Part shown: piece after piece, positions 13,451-31,678 of the stretch | Layout of the letters: each line of letters begins with the position of its first letter | How positions within the stretch are numbered: the first letter of the stretch is position 1 | Source: an uncultured Brachyspira sp. | Lineage (GTDB): Bacteria > Spirochaetota > Brachyspiria > Brachyspirales > Brachyspiraceae | DNA length: 64,000 bases | Assembly: GCF_944388875.1 (NCBI RefSeq) | Contig: NZ_CALXKQ010000003.1 | Location: forward strand, 186,001-250,000 | Reading direction: 5' to 3' | The notes under the pieces: generated by a model | Database searches by the model: none | What the model saw: only the letters and a program-made list of their open reading frames with translations | Told to the model about the DNA's origin: nothing | Program-made: the position numbers and the translations under genes

Positions 13451-16381
13451 TTATGGTGTAACAGTAGTTGCAGCACTATCCTGTAAATCAGTAATTGTAC
13501 TGTTAAGATCATATTCTTTTCTAGGCAAACCAACACCTGGAAAGTCTGTAAGAGTAAATTCAATCCAAAACTCCTTGTTCCAATAAATTCCTTTAACTGA
13601 ACCGCTGGTAATATCTGAAGGGAGAGTAGAAGGTCTTACAGCAAAACTAGCCATTATTTGCCATCCGTCTAATTCATGCCAAATACTAGCCTCTATAGAC
13701 TGCAGCTTAAATAAACTCTCTGTTCTTTTCTGAGAATTTTTGAAATTAAATGAGTCTATAATATCCCAAAACGGATTTACCCATGTTTCATTCTCTCTCT
13801 CAGCATAAGATTTTATATATCTGTAAGCCTTTTCATTAGCACTTGTAGTAGCTATTCTAAATTTCCATTGATCTATTACCTGCAACTCTATACCAAATGT
13901 AAATGCCGCTGTATTATATTTATAATTGATAAAATCATGCGTAAAAGCAAAACCAAAATACAAATTAAAATCATTAATAACACCATCAAAAAAAGGCTTC
14001 CTATTATTTTTTATAAGTATCCAATCTGTTATTTTTCCAAGAGGTATAGGAAAATGAAAGTATGAAGTAATACGATTAAGTGTTAAATTCGTACCAAGCA
14101 TGTTTCTGGAAATATCATAAGATATATAAGACTGATTATAATAAAGCCTAGCTGAAGAACCAACCTCTGTGGTAAGCATATTGTTTGTAGAAAACTCCAC
14201 TTCATAAAGCTGAGTTTCAGGGTTATATGTAGGTCTGAAATCGTATCCTGTTCTTATGAATGATTCCAAATTGAGATTTAAATCTGGAAGGAAAAATAAA
14301 CTATATCCTGTACCTCCTACAGTCAATTTTGTGGTTAAATTATGAGAATTAAATTCCCCATTTTGAGAATTAAGAGAATCTGTATCAATATATTTTTCTT
14401 TAAATCTGTATCCTAAACTATAAGTTGTATCCCATCTTACAATAGGTTCAAAATAATGAGTAAAGTTATAAGGTAAAATATTATAAGGCAAAAACATAGA
14501 AAAGTTTACGCCTGCCCCCAATCCTAAATATGTATTATCCTTATCATAAATTAAATCTTCTGCTGAAGGATCAATACTATTTTGATAAGAATATTCTATA
14601 TTAACGCTAGGTACAAATCTCAAAAAATCATTAGTAAAAGTTCTTGATAATCCGCCGTATAAATCTAAATAATCTCTTTCTGCAAGCTTATCATTTAATT
14701 GATCATCTAACATAGGATTATTATAAAAAGCAATACCTTCAGATGTTTTATAATTAATAGTATGATTATAGCTGGCTCTTAAATCATAATTTAATCTAAG
14801 ATCTGGGAAATAATAAGAAGTTTCATCTCCGAATACTGAACTGTAGCTCGCTTCAATAGACGGCAGAACAAGTTTATAGGGTTTAGGCATATAATAATCA
14901 AAATTTGTATTAACATCAACCGATATATTTCTTACAGCTTCCAAATCCCATTCAGCACCTGCTTTTAAATTTACACCGTATATATTATTATTTATATAAA
15001 CAGAATTTTCTATATAACTTTCAGGATAAGAATCTCCAATATCCTGCAAATTACCAGTAACTGAAGTGAAAAACGTCAATATATCAAAACGTCCTCTTTG
15101 ATTATAAAAATCCGATTTAAAATATAAATCACTATTTAAATTTAACTTACCAGTAACATAACTATTAATATTTTCACTGCTGTATAATTGCAGAGTATGA
15201 TCATATTCAAATTTATATCTAGGTACAAATTTACCTGACTGCCCGTTTGCAAAATAGTTAACATATCTAGTTCCATATCCTATGCTGGAAGTGATATATG
15301 AATCCAGCAAATAATACTGCCTTCCCAAAGCAAACATGGCATCTAAAGCAAAATCATTATATTGGCTTGTATATCTTATCTCGTCGCCTATTAAAAAACC
15401 TAATTTCTGATAAGCATCAAATCTTATTTTATGCTGAACACCATATATATCAAATATTTTAGAGTTCTGCATATATACGCCTTCTCTTAAGGATTCCCCA
15501 AATGAAGATATAATACCTGTACCCATATAGTTTTGCATAAACAAAGGAAAATAAAATACAGGCTGTCTGCCTACTCTGTAAATACTGTTAAATATCATCA
15601 TTTTTTTAGTATCCCATAAATAAACACGGCTTGTTAAAAAATCATGGGCTACTGGTGTTAAACGTGAAAAGCTAACGCTGCTGTTTTCAGCAAAAAATCT
15701 TTCATCATTAAATTTAATTATATCGCCTTTAACTGTAAATACCTGAAACTTAGTACCGCCTCCGAATAGAACTCCCTTTTTATCATCTCTATTGAGCATG
15801 AACCATTCGCCAGTAAGAGTACTTTCACCTGCATTTACAGTCAAATTTCCAGCCGCAAAAACCTCACCTGTTTTTAAACTATAAACAACCTTATCAGCAA
15901 TTAAAGTGTTATTATACATACGCATAGTAACATTGCCGTACAGCGATATAAGTTCCTCATCTGCTTCTTTTATCTCATAACGCTCTACAAAATCTGCTCC
16001 TATCAATTCAACTTGAGCTCCTCCCCTATTAATAGTTGTTCTTGCTACCTCCTTTACTTGCTCGCTGCCTGATACCATCTCTGCTTTAACATTAACCTGT
16101 CTTTCTATAATTCTTGCCCTTAAAGTTGCCTCTGTATCATAAGGATATATTTCTATGTTATTGACTCTAGCATATTCTCTAAGAACATAGAAAGGAGTAA
16201 AATTTACCAAATTAATAAATGATACTGGATTTCTTCTGGCATCAAATCTATTTATCTGCATTATTGCATTTTCACTTGCTGGAATATTATTATTTACCAT
16301 ATTAGTATTTATATTAGTATCCTGTGCATATAAACACACATTTAATATAAATAATGTAAATAATAATATTAAGATTCGCAT
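13451..16381 (-). CDS. lptD: LPS-assembly outer-membrane protein LptD (OstA-like)
   Basis: Probably inserts lipooligosaccharide into the outer leaflet of the outer membrane. There is a signal peptide (about residues 1-19), then a region of short repeating beta strands of the LptA/OstA type (about 105-250, with LYGNVTMRMYN, then ADKVVYSLKTGEVFAAGNLTV), and a long, aromatic, beta-rich barrel to the C-terminus with the conserved PVFYFPLFMQN-like turn at its start. Length 976 fits spirochaete LptD. It follows tyrS by 33 bases. The barrel is divergent, so the name rests on architecture. Confidence 0.75.
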   Translation of the reverse strand: MRILILLFTLFILNVCLYAQDTNINTNMVNNNIPASENAIMQINRFDARRNPVSFINLVNFTPFYVLREYARVNNIEIYPYDTEATLRARIIERQVNVKAEMVSGSEQVKEVARTTINRGGAQVELIGADFVERYEIKEADEELISLYGNVTMRMYNNTLIADKVVYSLKTGEVFAAGNLTVNAGESTLTGEWFMLNRDDKKGVLFGGGTKFQVFTVKGDIIKFNDERFFAENSSVSFSRLTPVAHDFLTSRVYLWDTKKMMIFNSIYRVGRQPVFYFPLFMQNYMGTGIISSFGESLREGVYMQNSKIFDIYGVQHKIRFDAYQKLGFLIGDEIRYTSQYNDFALDAMFALGRQYYLLDSYITSSIGYGTRYVNYFANGQSGKFVPRYKFEYDHTLQLYSSENINSYVTGKLNLNSDLYFKSDFYNQRGRFDILTFFTSVTGNLQDIGDSYPESYIENSVYINNNIYGVNLKAGAEWDLEAVRNISVDVNTNFDYYMPKPYKLVLPSIEASYSSVFGDETSYYFPDLRLNYDLRASYNHTINYKTSEGIAFYNNPMLDDQLNDKLAERDYLDLYGGLSRTFTNDFLRFVPSVNIEYSYQNSIDPSAEDLIYDKDNTYLGLGAGVNFSMFLPYNILPYNFTHYFEPIVRWDTTYSLGYRFKEKYIDTDSLNSQNGEFNSHNLTTKLTVGGTGYSLFFLPDLNLNLESFIRTGYDFRPTYNPETQLYEVEFSTNNMLTTEVGSSARLYYNQSYISYDISRNMLGTNLTLNRITSYFHFPIPLGKITDWILIKNNRKPFFDGVINDFNLYFGFAFTHDFINYKYNTAAFTFGIELQVIDQWKFRIATTSANEKAYRYIKSYAERENETWVNPFWDIIDSFNFKNSQKRTESLFKLQSIEASIWHELDGWQIMASFAVRPSTLPSDITSGSVKGIYWNKEFWIEFTLTDFPGVGLPRKEYDLNSTITDLQDSAATTVTP

Positions 16382-16414
16382 TATATCCTCTAAAACTCAA
16401 TTATCATTTTTATT

Positions 16415-17605
16415 TTAAGAAAATTTTATTTTAAAGAAATTGCGTTTGCCAACTTTTAAAATACCTTCTTTTGAAATTACAGAATTTATATCGCTGATCT
16501 TTTCATTATCTAAACTAACACTGCCTTGAGAAACAAGTCTTTTCAAATTAGATTTGCTTTCAGAAGACATGCAAACAGATAATATATTTAAAATATTATC
16601 ATCCTTTTTAACTGCTACCTCTTCAATTTCATCAGGAAGTCCTTTAGAACTAAATATCCTTTTAAACTCTTCCTCAGCATTATTAGCCTCATCTTCTCCA
16701 TGGTATATTTTTACTATCTCTTTAGCTAATATACCCTTTATGTTTCTAGGGTTTTCACCATTTTCCATAGACTTAACATAATCTTTAATATTCTCTATAG
16801 GTATATCAGTGAGAAGCTCCATATATTTAGATATTAAATTATCTGGTATGCTCATAGCCTTACCGTACATATCTTTAGCACTGTCATATATTCCTATATA
16901 ATTACCAAGAGATTTACTCATCTTCTCAACACCGTCTAAACCTTCTAATAACGGCACAGTAATAACTGCCTGAGGTGATAATCCATACTCTTTCATTAAA
17001 GTTCTTCCAACAAGCAAATTAAACTTTTGATCATTTCCTCCAAGCTCAACATCGCATTCTAAGGCAACAGAATCATAGCCTTGAGCCAATGGATAAAGAA
17101 ATTCCATCATACTTATAGGCTGACCATTTTTATATCTCTTAGCAAAATCATCCCTTTCTATCATCTGTGCTACCGTATATCTTGAAGTCAATCCCAATAC
17201 ATCGGCAAAACTCATTTTTTCAAGCCATTTTGAATTAAATTCAACTATCGTTTTTTCAGGGTCTAAAATTTTAAATACCTGCTGTTTATAAGTTTCAGCA
17301 TTTTTTAAAACATCCTCTAAAGTAAGTCTTGGTCTTGTCTTAGTTTTTCCAGAAGGGTCACCTATTCTTCCTGTAAAATCTCCTATCAAAAATACAACCT
17401 TATGACCTAATAATTGAAAGTGTCGCATCTTTCTTAAAAGTACAGTATGTCCCAAATGTATATCAGGTGCTGTAGGGTCAAAACCTGCTTTTACTGTTAA
17501 TTGTTTTCCATTTTTTAATTTTTCTTTTATCTCTTCAAGTCCTATAACTTCGCTTATACCGCGTGTAATTAATTCCATAGATTCTTCTACAGTATATTTT
17601 TCCAT
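16415..17605 (-). CDS. tyrS: Tyrosine--tRNA ligase
   Basis: Charges tRNA-Tyr. The class I catalytic core has the HIGH-type HLGH in [13 protein letters not shown] and the KMSKS in [12 protein letters not shown], with a C-terminal S4-like RNA-binding domain ([17 protein letters not shown]). The 396-residue length and these motifs suit the TyrRS type 2 (TyrZ) branch. The leader is only about 45 bases from the promoter, so a T-box is not present. Downstream lies lptD after 33 bases, so this is probably the first gene of the tyrS-lptD-ankyrin unit. Confidence 0.96.
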
Positions 17606-17652
17606 AATGATTAACCCTTTTATAAATAAAAAATATTATAATACAAATATTA

Positions 17653-17681
17653 ATAATAATGTAAATTTTAATTAAAGTCAA
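17653..17681 (-). promoter_or_regulatory. tyrS promoter
   Basis: Minus-strand TTGACT (17676-17681), 17-base spacer, TATTAT (17653-17658). The -35 box and nearly all of the spacer lie inside the left 35-bp repeat; the -10 box lies just outside it. Confidence 0.7.
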
Positions 17682-17694
17682 ATAAAGATTTTTA
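17660..17694. repeat. 35-bp direct repeat, left copy flanking the restriction cassette
   Basis: These 35 bases are identical to 19445-19479 and in the same orientation, beginning TGTAAATTTTAATTAAAGTC. The two copies are 1785 bases apart and bracket only the two-gene restriction-modification cassette. The flanking bases differ immediately on both sides. Confidence 0.95.
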
Positions 17695-17700
17695 AGTATT

Positions 17701-18291
17701 TTATTGAATTAAAAAAGTTTCTTGATATACTTCTCTATAATATCCTATATCTTTATTTATTAAATTACTAATATCTACAACTGCTCCAAATTTCATAAAT
17801 ATATTTTGAAATTTGTCAATATTTTTTCCATAATAAATAAAGCAGCAAGACATTGGAGCACCTTTATTATTATCATTACCATTTATTATAAATTTTAATC
17901 TTGTATCATATAAAAAACATATAGAAACTGCTTTTCCAAAAATATAATTTTTCCAATGAGAAGTATTTGTAGCAACAGGAACTAATAATAAAATTTCTGA
18001 ACCAAATTCTATATAAGATTCATAACTCTTTTTAATCCAATCTTTTATTGTAGTTTTCCTTACTCTATCTGCTCCATATGGAGGATTTACATATATTGTT
18101 CTATAATTCCATAATTTACTTAATCCGTCTGACGGAAGCATAAATTCTGTCTTAGCATTTACTATAGAATACTTATTGGAACATGGATCCAGTTCTATGT
18201 TGCCATCAAACATTTCAACTATAGCTTTTACATATTTTAATGGGGTACACCAATCCTGAGATTGAGAATTTACATTTCTTCCAGCACTCAT
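17701..18291 (-). CDS. DNA N6-adenine methyltransferase (phage Dam-like)
   Basis: Likely protects host DNA from the nuclease encoded just upstream by methylating adenine. It resembles the compact phage-type DNA N-6-adenine-methyltransferase family: W-C-T-P near residue 15, the IELDPCSN motif, the catalytic NPPY in TIYVNPPYGA, and the LLLVPVATNTSHW strand. At 196 residues it lacks a separate recognition domain. The ATG overlaps the TGA of the nuclease gene by four bases (ATGA), so translation is coupled. It lies within the 35-bp-repeat-bounded cassette. Confidence 0.88.
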   Translation of the reverse strand: MSAGRNVNSQSQDWCTPLKYVKAIVEMFDGNIELDPCSNKYSIVNAKTEFMLPSDGLSKLWNYRTIYVNPPYGADRVRKTTIKDWIKKSYESYIEFGSEILLLVPVATNTSHWKNYIFGKAVSICFLYDTRLKFIINGNDNNKGAPMSCCFIYYGKNIDKFQNIFMKFGAVVDISNLINKDIGYYREVYQETFLIQ

Positions 18292-19406
18292 TTATAAACC
18301 TCTTTCCAATCTTTTTCTAATAATTTTTTTATATTAACAATAATAGAATCTAAATCTAAACCCTTAGGAGATATTACATTGAACCATTTTTTTATATTTT
18401 CAAAATAATTATAAAAATATTTATTTAAAGCAATATCCGCTTTTAAATATATTTTTGACTTAGTAAATATATTCACATTTTTAATACTAGGAGAATAGCT
18501 TTCTTTAAAAGCATACTTTATATCATCATATTCTTTTTTATTACTCAGTAATAAAGTTTCTATAAATTGTGTTATTCCATTGTCTGTTAAAAATAATAAA
18601 TAATCATAAGATTGCGATAAAATTTTTAACTCTTTATTTGGATTATCACTAATGAACCAATTACCATGATTGCTTACAATACCAATTGTCAATATGAAAT
18701 CTTTTAATAATTCTAATTTAGAAGTAGATATAATTTCATCCAGTTTATCATAATAATTAAATAAACTAAAGCCGCTATTATTATTAGATAAAACACCTAA
18801 AAGAGTTCCATCATAATTTCTTATTTTTTGAAAAGAAGAAACAACTCTCGATACATAAGCACCTTGCTTTGCTTTCTCTATTGTTTGAGGACCTTTTTTA
18901 TTACCTGCCTCTACTCCAACTCTTTTACACTCAAACATAGCAAATGGTCTATTTACTAATTTATATATTTTTATAAATTGCTCATCTGTATTTACATAAG
19001 CATTATAAATAAATTTATCATCATAACATAGTCTTTTAGCATTATATATAATATTATTTTTATCTATTAGATTAACATTATTAATTTTTAAAATATTTTT
19101 ATTGTCATTAAAAATTTTATTTGCTTTTATAGGTAATTTTTCCAAATTATATTTATACTCATAAACTAATTCAGAACCATGCAATGTAAACTCTACATTA
19201 TGGGTAATATTCATATTGGCATATTCTGGTATTTTATATTCTATACATATATTATGTTGCAAACCAATAAGTTTTAAAAAATAGTATGTTATAATTTCAA
19301 CAAATGTACCTAAAGCTCTGCCAGCAGCTTTTTTACTATCTTTTCTATTTTTAAAAGTAGTATTTGCTAAAGCCAATTGTAATTTATCAATAGAGTCATA
19401 CGACAT
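18288..19406 (-). CDS. Putative type II restriction endonuclease
   Basis: Most likely the nuclease partner of the overlapping methyltransferase. The best site is RPFAMFECKRVGVE near residue 165, an ExK in a beta strand like the second half of a PD-(D/E)xK core, followed by KKGPQTIEKAKQGAYVSR; the preceding acidic residue cannot be placed surely. The N-terminal half is basic with many Asn/Lys. No helicase, translocase or HsdS-like part is present, so it is not type I or III. The specific family is not one I can name; cut site unknown. Confidence 0.7.
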   Translation of the reverse strand: MSYDSIDKLQLALANTTFKNRKDSKKAAGRALGTFVEIITYYFLKLIGLQHNICIEYKIPEYANMNITHNVEFTLHGSELVYEYKYNLEKLPIKANKIFNDNKNILKINNVNLIDKNNIIYNAKRLCYDDKFIYNAYVNTDEQFIKIYKLVNRPFAMFECKRVGVEAGNKKGPQTIEKAKQGAYVSRVVSSFQKIRNYDGTLLGVLSNNNSGFSLFNYYDKLDEIISTSKLELLKDFILTIGIVSNHGNWFISDNPNKELKILSQSYDYLLFLTDNGITQFIETLLLSNKKEYDDIKYAFKESYSPSIKNVNIFTKSKIYLKADIALNKYFYNYFENIKKWFNVISPKGLDLDSIIVNIKKLLEKDWKEVYK

Positions 19407-19437
19407 ATAAAAAACCTTACTAATATACTATATAACA

Positions 19438-19466
19438 AATATATTGTAAATTTTAATTAAAGTCAA
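19438..19466 (-). promoter_or_regulatory. Promoter of the restriction-modification operon
   Basis: Minus-strand TTGACT (19461-19466), 17-base spacer, TATATT (19438-19443), about 30 bases before the nuclease ATG. The -35 box and spacer belong to the right 35-bp repeat and are therefore the same as those of tyrS, with a different -10 box. Confidence 0.75.
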
Positions 19467-19479
19467 ATAAAGATTTTTA
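19445..19479. repeat. 35-bp direct repeat, right copy flanking the restriction cassette
   Basis: Perfect match to 17660-17694 in the same orientation. It lies between the M24 peptidase gene and the nuclease gene, so one copy must be the original intergenic sequence upstream of tyrS. Confidence 0.95.
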
Positions 19480-19501
19480 TTATGTTAATTTCATATCAAT
19501 A

Positions 19502-20581
19502 TTATTTTATTATCATTTCTTTTGTAAAGCTATTCAAATTTTCATGTCCGTCTTTAGTTACAAGTATTAAATCTTCTATTCTAACACCTATTTTTTTATT
19601 ATGACAGTAAATTCCAGGCTCTATTGAAAATATCATACCCTCTTTTAATTGGGCATGATGAATAGAACTTACATCCCCATATTCATGTACATCCATACCT
19701 ATACAATGTCCAGTTCTATGAGTAAAATATTCACCATATCCGTTTTCTGTTATATAAGAACGTGCCTCATTATCTATATCAGAAAATTTAACTTTTTCAC
19801 TAACTTTATTAATAGCTCTTTCATTTGCAGTTTTAACTATATCATATATTTTTTTAAACTCTTCATCAGGATTGCCAAAAAATATAGTTCTAGTCATATC
19901 AGAACAATAGCCATCATATATGCATCCCATATCTATAACCAAGCATCCGTTATTTTCTATTATTGTATTTCCTGTAGAATAATGAGGATTAGCAGCATTT
20001 TCTCTGAATGCTATAATAGGCTCAAATGAAAAAAGAGAATCATCAGCTCCGTTTCTTCTATATGTAAGTTTTAACTCTTCTAAAACATCAATCTCTTTCA
20101 TACCTACTTCAGCAAAATTAATAATATCATTCATGCTTTTATCATTAATCTCTGAAGCCTTAATCATCTTTTTTATCTCTTCCTCATCTTTCTGCATTCT
20201 GACATAATCTATGCAAGGCGAAGCATTTATGTAATTTTCAGCAATATCAATCTCTATCATCTCTAATAAGAAATTAGATGTCATTGATTTATCTATACCT
20301 ATATTTTTATCTTTATGAACAAATTTCGATAATTTTTTTACAGCACTTTCTGTATCAGAATAGTATAAAATATCTATATCATCATTATTTAAAGGAAAAA
20401 GCTGATTGTTAATAAGATGAATCTCATTATCCTGATTAATATAGAGCCCTAAAAATCTCTCACCTGAATGTATATTAATACCTGTAAGATAATATATGGA
20501 CATTCTATCAGTTATTACAAATTGATAGATATTTTTATCTTTCATTGATTTAATAACTCTGTTTAGCCTATTAATATTCAT
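19502..20581 (-). CDS. M24 family metallopeptidase (Xaa-Pro aminopeptidase/dipeptidase type)
   Basis: Cleaves peptides next to proline, with two metal ions in a pita-bread fold. The N-terminal creatinase-like domain spans about residues 1-125. The C-terminal domain holds the five ligands: two Asp in DMGCIYDGYCSDMTRTIFF, His in HRTGHCIGMDVHEYG, Glu in FSIEPGIY and Glu in VRIEDLIL. Length 359 is usual for PepQ or short PepP. It is 91 bases after thiM and may receive read-through from the riboswitch operon. No exported signal. Confidence 0.9.
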   Translation of the reverse strand: MNINRLNRVIKSMKDKNIYQFVITDRMSIYYLTGINIHSGERFLGLYINQDNEIHLINNQLFPLNNDDIDILYYSDTESAVKKLSKFVHKDKNIGIDKSMTSNFLLEMIEIDIAENYINASPCIDYVRMQKDEEEIKKMIKASEINDKSMNDIINFAEVGMKEIDVLEELKLTYRRNGADDSLFSFEPIIAFRENAANPHYSTGNTIIENNGCLVIDMGCIYDGYCSDMTRTIFFGNPDEEFKKIYDIVKTANERAINKVSEKVKFSDIDNEARSYITENGYGEYFTHRTGHCIGMDVHEYGDVSSIHHAQLKEGMIFSIEPGIYCHNKKIGVRIEDLILVTKDGHENLNSFTKEMIIK

Positions 20582-20672
20582 TTTTTATATAATCCTTTTT
20601 TAAATTATAAAAATGTATTTATAGATTATATACTAAAAAGAAATTTTTGCATAATACAAAATTATATAATTA

Positions 20673-21467
20673 TTACTCTTTTACCCTATTAGAAGCATTA
20701 TTAATATTAAGTTTATAAAGCTCATCAATAAATGAAACAGCAAAGCTAGCAGGAGCATCTGCCTTTTTTGAAGCCTCTTCACCTGCCTCAGCCATTATGC
20801 ACATAGCAGAAGAAGCAGCAATTAAAGGTTCGGACACCGCAAGCATAGCAGCAGTAATTGCAGTAGAAGTACAGCCCATACCAGTATTAAGAGGCATTAA
20901 AGGAGAACCTCCATTTACATATAAAACTCTATTTCCATCTGTTATAATATCTGTTTCTCCGCTTATGCTTACAACCGTATTATACTCTTTAGCTAAATGT
21001 CTGCCAGCTTCTAATGCCATATTAACATTTGCCGTGCTGTCTACTCCTTTAGTTTTTATACTTTCACCAGCAAGAACCATTATCTCTGAAGCATTACCTC
21101 TTACTACTTTGGGATTATAATTTTTCATTATATCTACAGCTGTTTTAGTTCTTAATTTTGTTGCTCCTGCTCCTACAGGGTCAAGTACAAAAGGCACATT
21201 TTTTTTATTTGCTATCTCGCATGCACTATGCATAGCCTCTATAGAACTTTTAGTTAAAGTACCTATATTAATAACAAGTGAGGAAGCAATAGAAAGCATA
21301 TCTTCAAACTCTTCTTTTTCAAATGTCATAACTGGAGAAGCCCCAACAGCAAGCAAGGCATTAGCAGTAATCTGCATAACTACGAAATTTGTTATATTAT
21401 GAACTAATGGGTTTTTAGATTTCATATCAGTAATTGCTTTAAATATTTCATCTTTTAATGTACTCAT
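20673..21467 (-). CDS. thiM: Hydroxyethylthiazole kinase
   Basis: Phosphorylates the thiazole moiety (THZ) so that it can be joined to HMP-PP, a salvage step of thiamine synthesis. Typical start PLVHNITNFVVMQITANALLA, then PVMTFEKEEFEDML, FVLDPVGAGATKLR, RGNASEIMVLAGE, and the active-site NTGMGCTSTAITAAM. Complete at 264 residues. Third gene in the run headed by the TPP riboswitch, 70 bases after the PhzF-like gene. ThiD and ThiE are not in the window. Confidence 0.96.
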   Translation of the reverse strand: MSTLKDEIFKAITDMKSKNPLVHNITNFVVMQITANALLAVGASPVMTFEKEEFEDMLSIASSLVINIGTLTKSSIEAMHSACEIANKKNVPFVLDPVGAGATKLRTKTAVDIMKNYNPKVVRGNASEIMVLAGESIKTKGVDSTANVNMALEAGRHLAKEYNTVVSISGETDIITDGNRVLYVNGGSPLMPLNTGMGCTSTAITAAMLAVSEPLIAASSAMCIMAEAGEEASKKADAPASFAVSFIDELYKLNINNASNRVKE

Positions 21468-21537
21468 ATATTCTCTCCTTATAATTTTATTCTTAATTAT
21501 TTTTTATTCTTTTATTTTATTTTTACTAATTATTTTA

Positions 21538-29094: not shown

Positions 29095-29130
29095 AATAGA
29101 ACTCTATAATATATAGAGTTCTATTTTTAT
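29095..29130 (+). terminator. Strong intrinsic terminator upstream of the first double-cubane gene
   Basis: Perfect 13-base stem (29095-29107 with 29113-29125), five-base loop, and TTTTAT. It ends only about 28 bases before the next ATG, so it either stops the outer-membrane protein transcript or acts as leader attenuator. A weaker version sits at the same place before the second gene. Confidence 0.8.
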
Positions 29131-29158
29131 AAAACAAATATATTCAGGGAGTAATACA

Positions 29159-30310
29159 ATGTCTAATAAGAATTTACCAGAAATTTTTGAAACATTTACA
29201 GATGCACGTAAAAAAGGTTTTCTTACTATGAAAGAAGAAAAAGATAAGGGAAGAAATGTAGTAGGAAGTTTTTGCACCTATACGCCGAAAGAAGTAATAT
29301 ATGCTGCTGATGCCATATCAGTATCATTATGCTCCACAAATGAAGAAACTATACCCGAAGCGGAAAAATATCTGCCTAAAAACTTATGTCCGTTAATAAA
29401 ATCAAGCTATGGTTTTGCTATAACAGATAAATGCCCTTATATGTATTTCTCTGATTTAATAGTAGGAGAAACCACATGTGATGGAAAGAAAAAGATGTAT
29501 GAGCTTTTAGGAGAAATAAAAAATACTCATGTTATGCAGCTGCCTCATTCAAAAAATGAATATGCTTTGGAACTTTGGAAAAATGAAATATCAGAACTTA
29601 TAAAAAGACTAGAAAAAGAATTTAATATAAAAATAACAGAAGAAAAATTAAGAGATTCTATAAAACTATTTAACGAAGAAAGAAGGGCAATAAAAGAATT
29701 ATATGAATTAGGAAAACTTAATCCTTCCCCTATAAGAGGAAGTGAAATGCATGAGGCTTTGCATTCATCTAATTATAAATTTAACAGAATAGCATACATA
29801 AATGAAATAAAACAATTAGTAAAGAGTATAAAAGAAACATATTTGCAAAGCGAACAAAAAGAATCTGATAAAAATAAACCTAGAATATTAATAACAGGAT
29901 GTCCTACTGGAGGACTTGTTGATAAAGTTATAAGACAGATTGAAGAAGTGGGTGGAAGTGTTGTTTGTTTTGAAAGCTGTTTAGGAAGTAAAAATTTTGA
30001 AATGCTTGTTGATGAAGATAAAGATCCAATAGAAGCCATTGCTGAAAAATATATTAATATACCTTGTTCAGTTATGAGTCCTAATGACGGCAGAATGGAT
30101 GTAATAAAAAAATATATAGAAGAATATAATATAGATGGGGTTATAGAAGTTACACTTACTGCATGTCATACTTATGCTGTAGAAACAGAAAAAGTAAGAC
30201 GTACTGTAGAAGAATGCGGAAAATCATATTTAAATATAGAAACTAATTATTCTAACAGTGATGCTCCTCAGCTTAGAACTAGGTTAGAAGCATTTATTGA
30301 AATGTTATAG
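29159..30310 (+). CDS. Double-cubane-cluster (HgdB-like) anaerobic reductase, copy 1
   Basis: Belongs to the 2-hydroxyacyl-CoA dehydratase superfamily and resembles the double-cubane cluster proteins, which hold an [8Fe-9S] cluster and accept electrons from an ATP-driven activator to carry out very low-potential reductions. Conserved cysteines lie in GSFCTYTPKE, then NLCPLIKSS, DKCPYMYFSDL, ETTCDGKKKMYE, ITGCPTGG and LTACHTYAVE. At 383 residues, one chain is full length. There is no separate HgdA-type subunit. Substrate unknown. A close paralogue follows at 30530. Confidence 0.85.
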   Translation: MSNKNLPEIFETFTDARKKGFLTMKEEKDKGRNVVGSFCTYTPKEVIYAADAISVSLCSTNEETIPEAEKYLPKNLCPLIKSSYGFAITDKCPYMYFSDLIVGETTCDGKKKMYELLGEIKNTHVMQLPHSKNEYALELWKNEISELIKRLEKEFNIKITEEKLRDSIKLFNEERRAIKELYELGKLNPSPIRGSEMHEALHSSNYKFNRIAYINEIKQLVKSIKETYLQSEQKESDKNKPRILITGCPTGGLVDKVIRQIEEVGGSVVCFESCLGSKNFEMLVDEDKDPIEAIAEKYINIPCSVMSPNDGRMDVIKKYIEEYNIDGVIEVTLTACHTYAVETEKVRRTVEECGKSYLNIETNYSNSDAPQLRTRLEAFIEML

Positions 30311-30342
30311 CTATATTTTTTTTAGAAAAATAAATTATTTAA

Positions 30343-30371
30343 TTGACAAATAATTACATTTTTATTATAAT
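30343..30371 (+). promoter_or_regulatory. Consensus promoter for the second double-cubane gene
   Basis: TTGACA (30343-30348), exactly 17 bases, TATAAT (30366-30371). It gives a leader of about 150 bases with an imperfect hairpin near 30378-30420 and a degenerate terminator-like stem at 30477-30494. Confidence 0.9.
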
Positions 30372-30529
30372 TTCGGTTATGATTACTAATTTTGCTGTAA
30401 ACAAATTGATAGTATCCATTTCATATCTATCTAAAAAATATACAAGACATATAATATAATATTCATTCTATAGGATATAGAATTTCATTTCTATTTTTAT
30501 AAAACAAATATATTTTAGGGAGTAATGCA

Positions 30530-31678
30530 ATGTCCAATAACGCTTTACCAGAAATTTTTGAAACATTTGCCGATGCACGTAAAAAAGGTTTTCTTGCTAT
30601 GAAAGCAGAAAAAGATAAGGGAAGAAACGTAGTAGGGACTTTTTGTACCTATACGCCAAAAGAATTAATATATGCTGCTAATGCAGTATCTGTATCATTA
30701 TGTTCTACAAGTGATGAAACTATACCTGAAGCTGAAAAATATCTGCCTAAAAACTTATGTCCGTTAATAAAATCAAGCTACGGTTTTGCTATAACAGATA
30801 AATGTCCCTATATGTATTTCTCTGATTTAATAGTAGGAGAAACTACATGCGACGGAAAGAAAAAGATGTATGAACTTTTGGGAGAAGTAAAAGATACTCA
30901 TGTTATGCAATTGCCTCATACAAAAAATTATTATTCCTTTGAGCTTTGGAAAAATGAATTAAATATACTTATAAAAAAATTAGAAGAAAAGTTTAATGTA
31001 AAAATAACAGAAGAAAAATTAAGAGATGCTATAAAATTATTCAATGAAGAGAGAACTCTTATGAAAGAATTTTTCTCTCTTGCTAAATTAGTACCTTCTC
31101 CTGTTAAAGGAACAGAACTGCATGATGTTATGAGTTCATCAAGCTTTAAATTTGATAAAAAAGAATTCTTTGAAGAAATTAAAAAAGCTATTGCAGATAC
31201 AAAAGCAAAATATGAAAGAGGAGAAACTCCATTTACTGAAGATACTCCTAGAATATTGATAACAGGATGTCCTACTGGAGGTGTTGTAAATAAAGTAATA
31301 AAACAAATAGAAGAAATAGGCGGTTCTGTTGTATGTATAGAAAATTGTTCAGGAACAAAAAATCATGAAATGCTAGTTGATGAAAATAAAGACCCAATAG
31401 AAGCCATTGCTGAAAGATATTTAAATATCCCTTGTTCTATTATGGTTAATAATGACGGGAGGATGGAAAGAATAAAAAGATATATAGATGAATATAAAGT
31501 TGATGGTGTTATAGATGTTACACTCACAGCATGTCATACTTACGCTATAGAAACAGAAAAAGTAAGACGTACTGTAGAAGGATGCGGAAAATCATATTTG
31601 GCTATAGAAACAAATTATTCTAATAGCGATGCTCCTCAAATTAGAACTAGATTAGAAGCATTTGTTGAAATGCTGTAA
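30530..31678 (+). CDS. Double-cubane-cluster (HgdB-like) anaerobic reductase, copy 2
   Basis: A tandem paralogue of the previous gene with long identical runs through KYLPKNLCPLIKSSYGFA and SDLIVGETTCDGKKKMYE; all the probable cluster cysteines are kept. The greatest difference lies in the middle (about residues 125-235, helical lid) and the region just after it. The 40 bases before the ATG also match those before copy 1, including AGGGAG. It has its own perfect-consensus promoter, so it may be the more strongly expressed copy. 382 residues. Confidence 0.85.
   Translation: MSNNALPEIFETFADARKKGFLAMKAEKDKGRNVVGTFCTYTPKELIYAANAVSVSLCSTSDETIPEAEKYLPKNLCPLIKSSYGFAITDKCPYMYFSDLIVGETTCDGKKKMYELLGEVKDTHVMQLPHTKNYYSFELWKNELNILIKKLEEKFNVKITEEKLRDAIKLFNEERTLMKEFFSLAKLVPSPVKGTELHDVMSSSSFKFDKKEFFEEIKKAIADTKAKYERGETPFTEDTPRILITGCPTGGVVNKVIKQIEEIGGSVVCIENCSGTKNHEMLVDENKDPIEAIAERYLNIPCSIMVNNDGRMERIKRYIDEYKVDGVIDVTLTACHTYAIETEKVRRTVEGCGKSYLAIETNYSNSDAPQIRTRLEAFVEML

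Follow-up and report, generated by a model that had tools for sequence, protein, structure and literature searches.

Organization of the locus

The DNA considered here is a stretch of 64,000 nucleotides from an uncultured Brachyspira sp. (contig NZ_CALXKQ010000003.1, positions 186,001 to 250,000), hereafter referred to as the window. Within it, the gap between tyrS and a gene encoding an M24 peptidase is occupied by a putative type II restriction-modification (R-M) cassette enclosed by two copies of a 35-base sequence (Table 1). The copies are identical at 35/35 bases, share the same orientation and diverge immediately on either side. Exactly two open reading frames (ORFs) lie between them, both on the minus strand and overlapping by ATGA, which encode a putative nuclease and a phage-type DNA methyltransferase. 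The enclosed DNA consists of 38 bp preceding the nuclease start, the two overlapping genes and 6 bp past the methyltransferase stop. A first-pass annotation made from the sequence alone had described this arrangement, together with the lack of integrase or transposase genes in the cassette and of inverted repeats at its ends; on re-examination, the repeats and gene overlap were reproduced base for base, only the two ORFs were present, and no inverted repeat was compelling. An Rfam search of positions 16000-21500 gave no match.

In simulated sequences of 64 kb (Markov order 1, 3 and 5), the longest exact repeat spanned 15-21 bases and never exceeded 21, so a repeat of 35 bases is beyond chance expectation. 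In about 300 real control intervals of 1.7-2.1 kb outside two tandem-paralogue loci, the best repeat score was at most 16, and the 35-mer has no further match anywhere in the 3.1-Mb host genome at up to 3 mismatches.

Empty sites within the genus

In 11 other species of the genus (G017, G024, G016, G002, G012, G008, G003, G023, G014, G020 and G011), the arrangement runs from tyrS through a single repeat to the M24 peptidase gene, with no cassette in between. Two of these genomes, G017 and G024, are approximately 91% identical to the window over the queried DNA. In the window, the sequence outside the left copy is the ancestral tyrS leader, and that outside the right copy is the ancestral flank of the peptidase gene. 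Searches of 25 further genomes of the genus detected neither the nuclease nor the methyltransferase protein, and in comparisons with G017, G024 and G018 the cassette was the sole large insertion seen across 7.4-20.7 kb of collinear DNA. Taken together, the single-copy empty sites, the ancestral outer flanks and the absence of the cassette from the 25 other genomes confirm that it was inserted into the M24 peptidase-tyrS gap with duplication of a 35-bp target, as had been proposed in the first-pass annotation. Clean excision by recombination between the two copies was seen in no genome; its product would resemble the empty sites.

The gap beside tyrS is variable within the genus. At five loci (L033-L037, in G018, G013, G005, G004 and G009), the M24 peptidase ortholog is absent from this position and replaced by other genes, which in G004 and G009 form tandem arrays of genes of about 385 aa.

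Table 1. Features of the tyrS-M24 peptidase region in the window (coordinates count from the first base of the window)
Feature	Coordinates	Strand	Remarks
tyrS	16415..17605	-	One flank of the target gap
tyrS promoter	17653..17681	-	TTGACT-17-TATTAT; conserved across the genus
Direct repeat copy 1 (target duplication, tyrS side)	17660..17694		Minus-strand reading holds TTGACT and most of the 17-nt tyrS promoter spacer
Inserted DNA	17695..19444	-	1750 bp; 23.2% G+C vs 28.7% for the window
Phage-type DNA N6-adenine methyltransferase	17701..18291	-	196 aa; PF05869, phrog_111, PADLOC oMTase; NPPYG motif
Putative type II restriction endonuclease	18288..19406	-	372 aa; PD-(D/E)XK-like motif order
Candidate nuclease promoter	19438..19466	-	TTGACT-17-TATATT; -35 from duplicated target, -10 inside inserted DNA; consensus match only
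Direct repeat copy 2 (target duplication, M24 peptidase side)	19445..19479		Gives TTGACT upstream of the nuclease
M24 peptidase (PF00557)	19502..20581	-	Opposite flank of the target gap

A second insertion in Treponema

The flanks of every locus carrying a homologous cassette (about 24) were compared for repeats. At locus L048 of the metagenome-assembled genome of Treponema sp. RGIG4439 (G306), a perfect direct repeat of 37/37 bases surrounds an insert of 2055 bp, beginning 276 bp upstream of the nuclease gene, with the other copy 90 bp downstream of the methyltransferase gene. The 37 bases comprise the last codons and the stop of a small gene on the opposite strand. In the relative G092 the site is uninterrupted: the joined flanks align without gaps at 97% identity, and one copy of the 37 bases is present, with a single substitution at its first base. 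By inspection, the 35-bp and 37-bp repeats have no obvious sequence or core in common, and the distances between repeats and genes differ (38/6 bp in the window vs 239/90 bp at L048). No end sequences shared between the two inserts were seen, and comparison of the ends of both inserts by eye revealed no compelling terminal inverted repeats, just AT-rich similarity. L048 represents an independent event, in which a homologous cassette entered an unrelated target and produced a duplication of almost equal length.

The cassette proteins and their distribution

Among 22 aligned nucleases, E72 and E159-C-K161 (an ExK motif) are invariant and are followed by a shared GPQTIEKAKQG segment, which is modelled as a helix in the predicted structure (predicted local distance difference test, pLDDT, 88). 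The motif order is as would be expected for a PD-(D/E)XK active site. The type II restriction enzyme models of PADLOC (REase_II) gave weak matches to 9 of the 22 family members (best E 6.1e-6), and no Pfam or NCBIfam model matches the family. The methyltransferase matches PF05869 at 48.3 bits (cut-off 28.1), with an invariant catalytic NPPYG motif, and its phage relatives in this family (PF05869/phrog_111) are 30-36% identical. Judged from these sequence features, the pair probably constitutes a type II R-M-like cassette with a putative nuclease.

The two genes are adjacent in nearly all of roughly two dozen loci, distributed over about eight phyla according to record titles. The carrier records include Treponema/Spirochaetales, Kiritimatiellae, Oscillospiraceae, Prevotella/Sphingobacteriales, Kapaibacterium, Phycisphaerae, Holophagaceae, Desulfovibrio, Methylomonas and Bifidobacterium, and their nucleases share 38-52% identity with the window protein. 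The pair is a type II R-M-like cassette with an operon-like organization that has spread horizontally. Whereas phage N6-adenine methyltransferases belong to the same family as the cassette methyltransferase, none of the phage or plasmid records searched encodes the partner nuclease; only a few viral contigs in IMG/VR carry homologous pairs, with a phage-integrase-like ORF approximately 600 bp downstream.

Two family members appear degraded. At L069:597-1402, nuclease residues 1-228 are fused straight to the methyltransferase C-terminus, and this is a cassette decayed by internal deletion. The nuclease copy at L064:5001-5048 looks broken, with a stop at codon 16 of its frame. In the G107 lineage, the left edge of the cassette coincides with the point (L127, from about position 2047) at which a relative, G135, has a different DNA methyltransferase-like gene. 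A single site thus appears to have been used repeatedly by R-M-type genes, which suggests that it is likely an insertion hot spot.

Promoters at the insertion site

The first-pass annotation had proposed that the repeat supplies the -35 half of two working promoters, one for the nuclease and one for tyrS. Both hexamer pairs listed in Table 1 are present in the sequence. Promoter-consensus sites are no commoner than in shuffled sequence (35 found vs 30.8 +/- 6.6 expected), so that hexamers alone are insufficient and other support is needed. For tyrS, such support comes from conservation: on the plus strand, TGTAAATTT-Y-AATTAAAGTCAA is invariant in 20 aligned relatives (L002-L021), and its minus-strand reading is TTGACTTTAATT, continuing toward the -10. 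This invariance strongly supports the predicted assignment of the stretch as the tyrS promoter. The tyrS promoter is accordingly the half of the proposal that conservation supports, while the use of the duplicated -35 with TATATT by the nuclease is plausible from a consensus match of a type that is common in AT-rich DNA.

Beyond the needs of a plain sigma-70 promoter, the entire spacer between the -35 and -10 of tyrS is nearly invariant in the 20 relatives (17653-17685), and an additional regulatory site may overlap it.

Relation to known R-M insertions

R-M systems are thought to act as selfish mobile genes, and, to our knowledge, the entry of bare R-M pairs at new sites without a recombinase has been a standing question since 2000. 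The cases described here involve homologous cassettes in two genera, with almost equal duplications at unrelated sites, each having an empty-site relative; the length of the duplication, the choice of target and the enzymes required thereby become open to testing.

As cited in PMC3031569, PMC3874152 and PMC1643837, R-M insertion with long target duplication has been described in Helicobacter pylori (Nobusato et al. 2000; Furuta et al. 2010), with duplications of variable length, around 100 bp. The mobility mechanism of the Brachyspira cassette, which the first-pass annotation expected to be new or supplied in trans, need not be new, since insertion of this kind has published precedent. Such insertion is rare and mechanistically unexplained, and has hitherto been known mainly from Helicobacter. 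As in the Helicobacter cases, to the extent that these accounts describe them, the R-M genes lie between direct repeats of the target, known mobility genes are lacking, and the event is revealed by genome comparison. Three hallmarks are present in both the window and L048: direct repeats around the R-M unit, a relative with a single-copy empty site, and no transposase or integrase gene in the inserted unit. Unlike the Helicobacter cases outlined in those accounts, the duplications here (35 and 37 bp, two cases only) are shorter and nearly equal, the hosts are spirochaetes, and the nuclease of the R-M family has no Pfam or NCBIfam model. The present case belongs to a known class of insertion, while the R-M family, the hosts and the two short, near-equal duplications are new. 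An insertion of a PabI-family R-M system in Campylobacter coli (PMC4615327) likewise placed exactly two R-M genes into an otherwise conserved site, but 4 bp (AGCT) were replaced there and no long duplication was reported.

Proposed mechanism and alternative explanations

It appears probable that a captured minimal type II-like R-M cassette entered the gap by insertion with long target duplication of about 35 bp on each side. A DNA fragment carrying the R-M genes would have been inserted where a break, or two nicks, left a stagger of approximately 35 nt, and filling in of the single-stranded ends would have left duplicated target on both sides, with no element-encoded recombinase or fixed ends involved. 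R-M activity or selection may then have kept the insert in place. One edge of the duplication separates the -35 and spacer of the tyrS promoter from its -10, so that tyrS would have retained its own promoter and the cassette would have acquired a -35 element. Copying half of a promoter in this way could allow an insert to be expressed without depriving the essential gene downstream of its promoter. Ku-dependent end joining was considered and rejected, as no Ku gene was detected in seven genomes, with a positive B. subtilis control.

A number of observations weigh against this interpretation. Long flanking repeats occur at just 2 of the approximately 24 cassette loci, the remaining loci having repeats at chance level, and comparison of L052 with a cassette-free version of its site in the relative G434 revealed no duplication; other routes, or repeat decay, must therefore also occur. 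No donor was found, the nearest homologues seen being about 52% (nuclease) and 70% (methyltransferase) identical. A fold search with the nuclease model against the PDB gave no usable match, restriction and methylation are predicted activities of the pair, and the staggered-break step names no enzyme. The near-constant duplication length is a lead that rests on two cases. A bolder version attributes paired nicks about 36 nt apart to the R-M nuclease or a partner, which would make this R-M family self-mobilising without a transposase. It is a long shot; if true, the near-equal 35- and 37-bp duplications would be the signature of a dedicated process.

The almost equal lengths could also reflect a protein footprint, as would be left if the cassette had been moved in trans by a transposase or site-specific recombinase, with the 35/37-bp repeats as the target duplications or attachment (att) cores of that enzyme. 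These genomes contain many tyrosine recombinase genes, and the integrase-like ORF near the homologous pairs on viral contigs points in the same direction. However, the repeats have no obvious shared core, the inserts have neither common ends nor a set distance to the genes, and 35-37 bp exceeds the usual target duplications of DDE transposases, which makes this explanation unlikely. Elements carrying their own enzyme were also rejected: a DDE transposon or insertion sequence by the presence of just two ORFs, with no transposase, terminal inverted repeats or shared insert ends, and an integrase-dependent island with att sites by 35-bp and 37-bp repeats that are unrelated on inspection and have no common core. 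Both att-site integration and standard transposition fit poorly, since the repeats are unrelated, the ends unshared and the repeat-gene distances different.

Two further explanations attribute the repeat to other processes. In Campbell-type integration, a circle bearing the cassette and a 35-bp stretch of the target, by chance or by descent, would have recombined with the chromosome; excision from an earlier insertion would yield a circle with one such copy. At L048, the sequence bordering the left repeat on its inner side resembles, on the minus strand, the beginning of a signal-peptide-like ORF whose frame stays open into the repeat, which might thus be part of homologous coding DNA. That inner flank was nevertheless not found among 196 Treponema genomes besides the carrier, no further copy of the 35-mer exists in the Brachyspira host genome, and independent short homologies would be required at two unrelated targets, leaving this route quite improbable. 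A regulatory element duplicated independently of the arrival of the cassette, and kept for promoter function, would accord with the strong conservation of the block in the genus, where a copy could be useful. However, each copy abuts the insert precisely and continues outward into its ancestral flank, and what is duplicated in Treponema is not a promoter but the 3' end of a coding region; an independent duplication is therefore very improbable.

Additional observations

Downstream of the cassette at L052 (6727-6800) lies a hairpin-forming sequence resembling integron attC sites, with matches of about 77-97% in approximately 100 Treponema genomes, sometimes several per contig. When an integron route was tested on this basis, the integrase model picked up just generic tyrosine recombinases, scoring under its cut-off, and did so in all control genomes too. 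Elsewhere in the window (29119-31600), about 1.37 kb is duplicated in tandem, probably as paralogous genes; the exactly matching blocks reach 47 bases and are spaced 1368-1371 apart.
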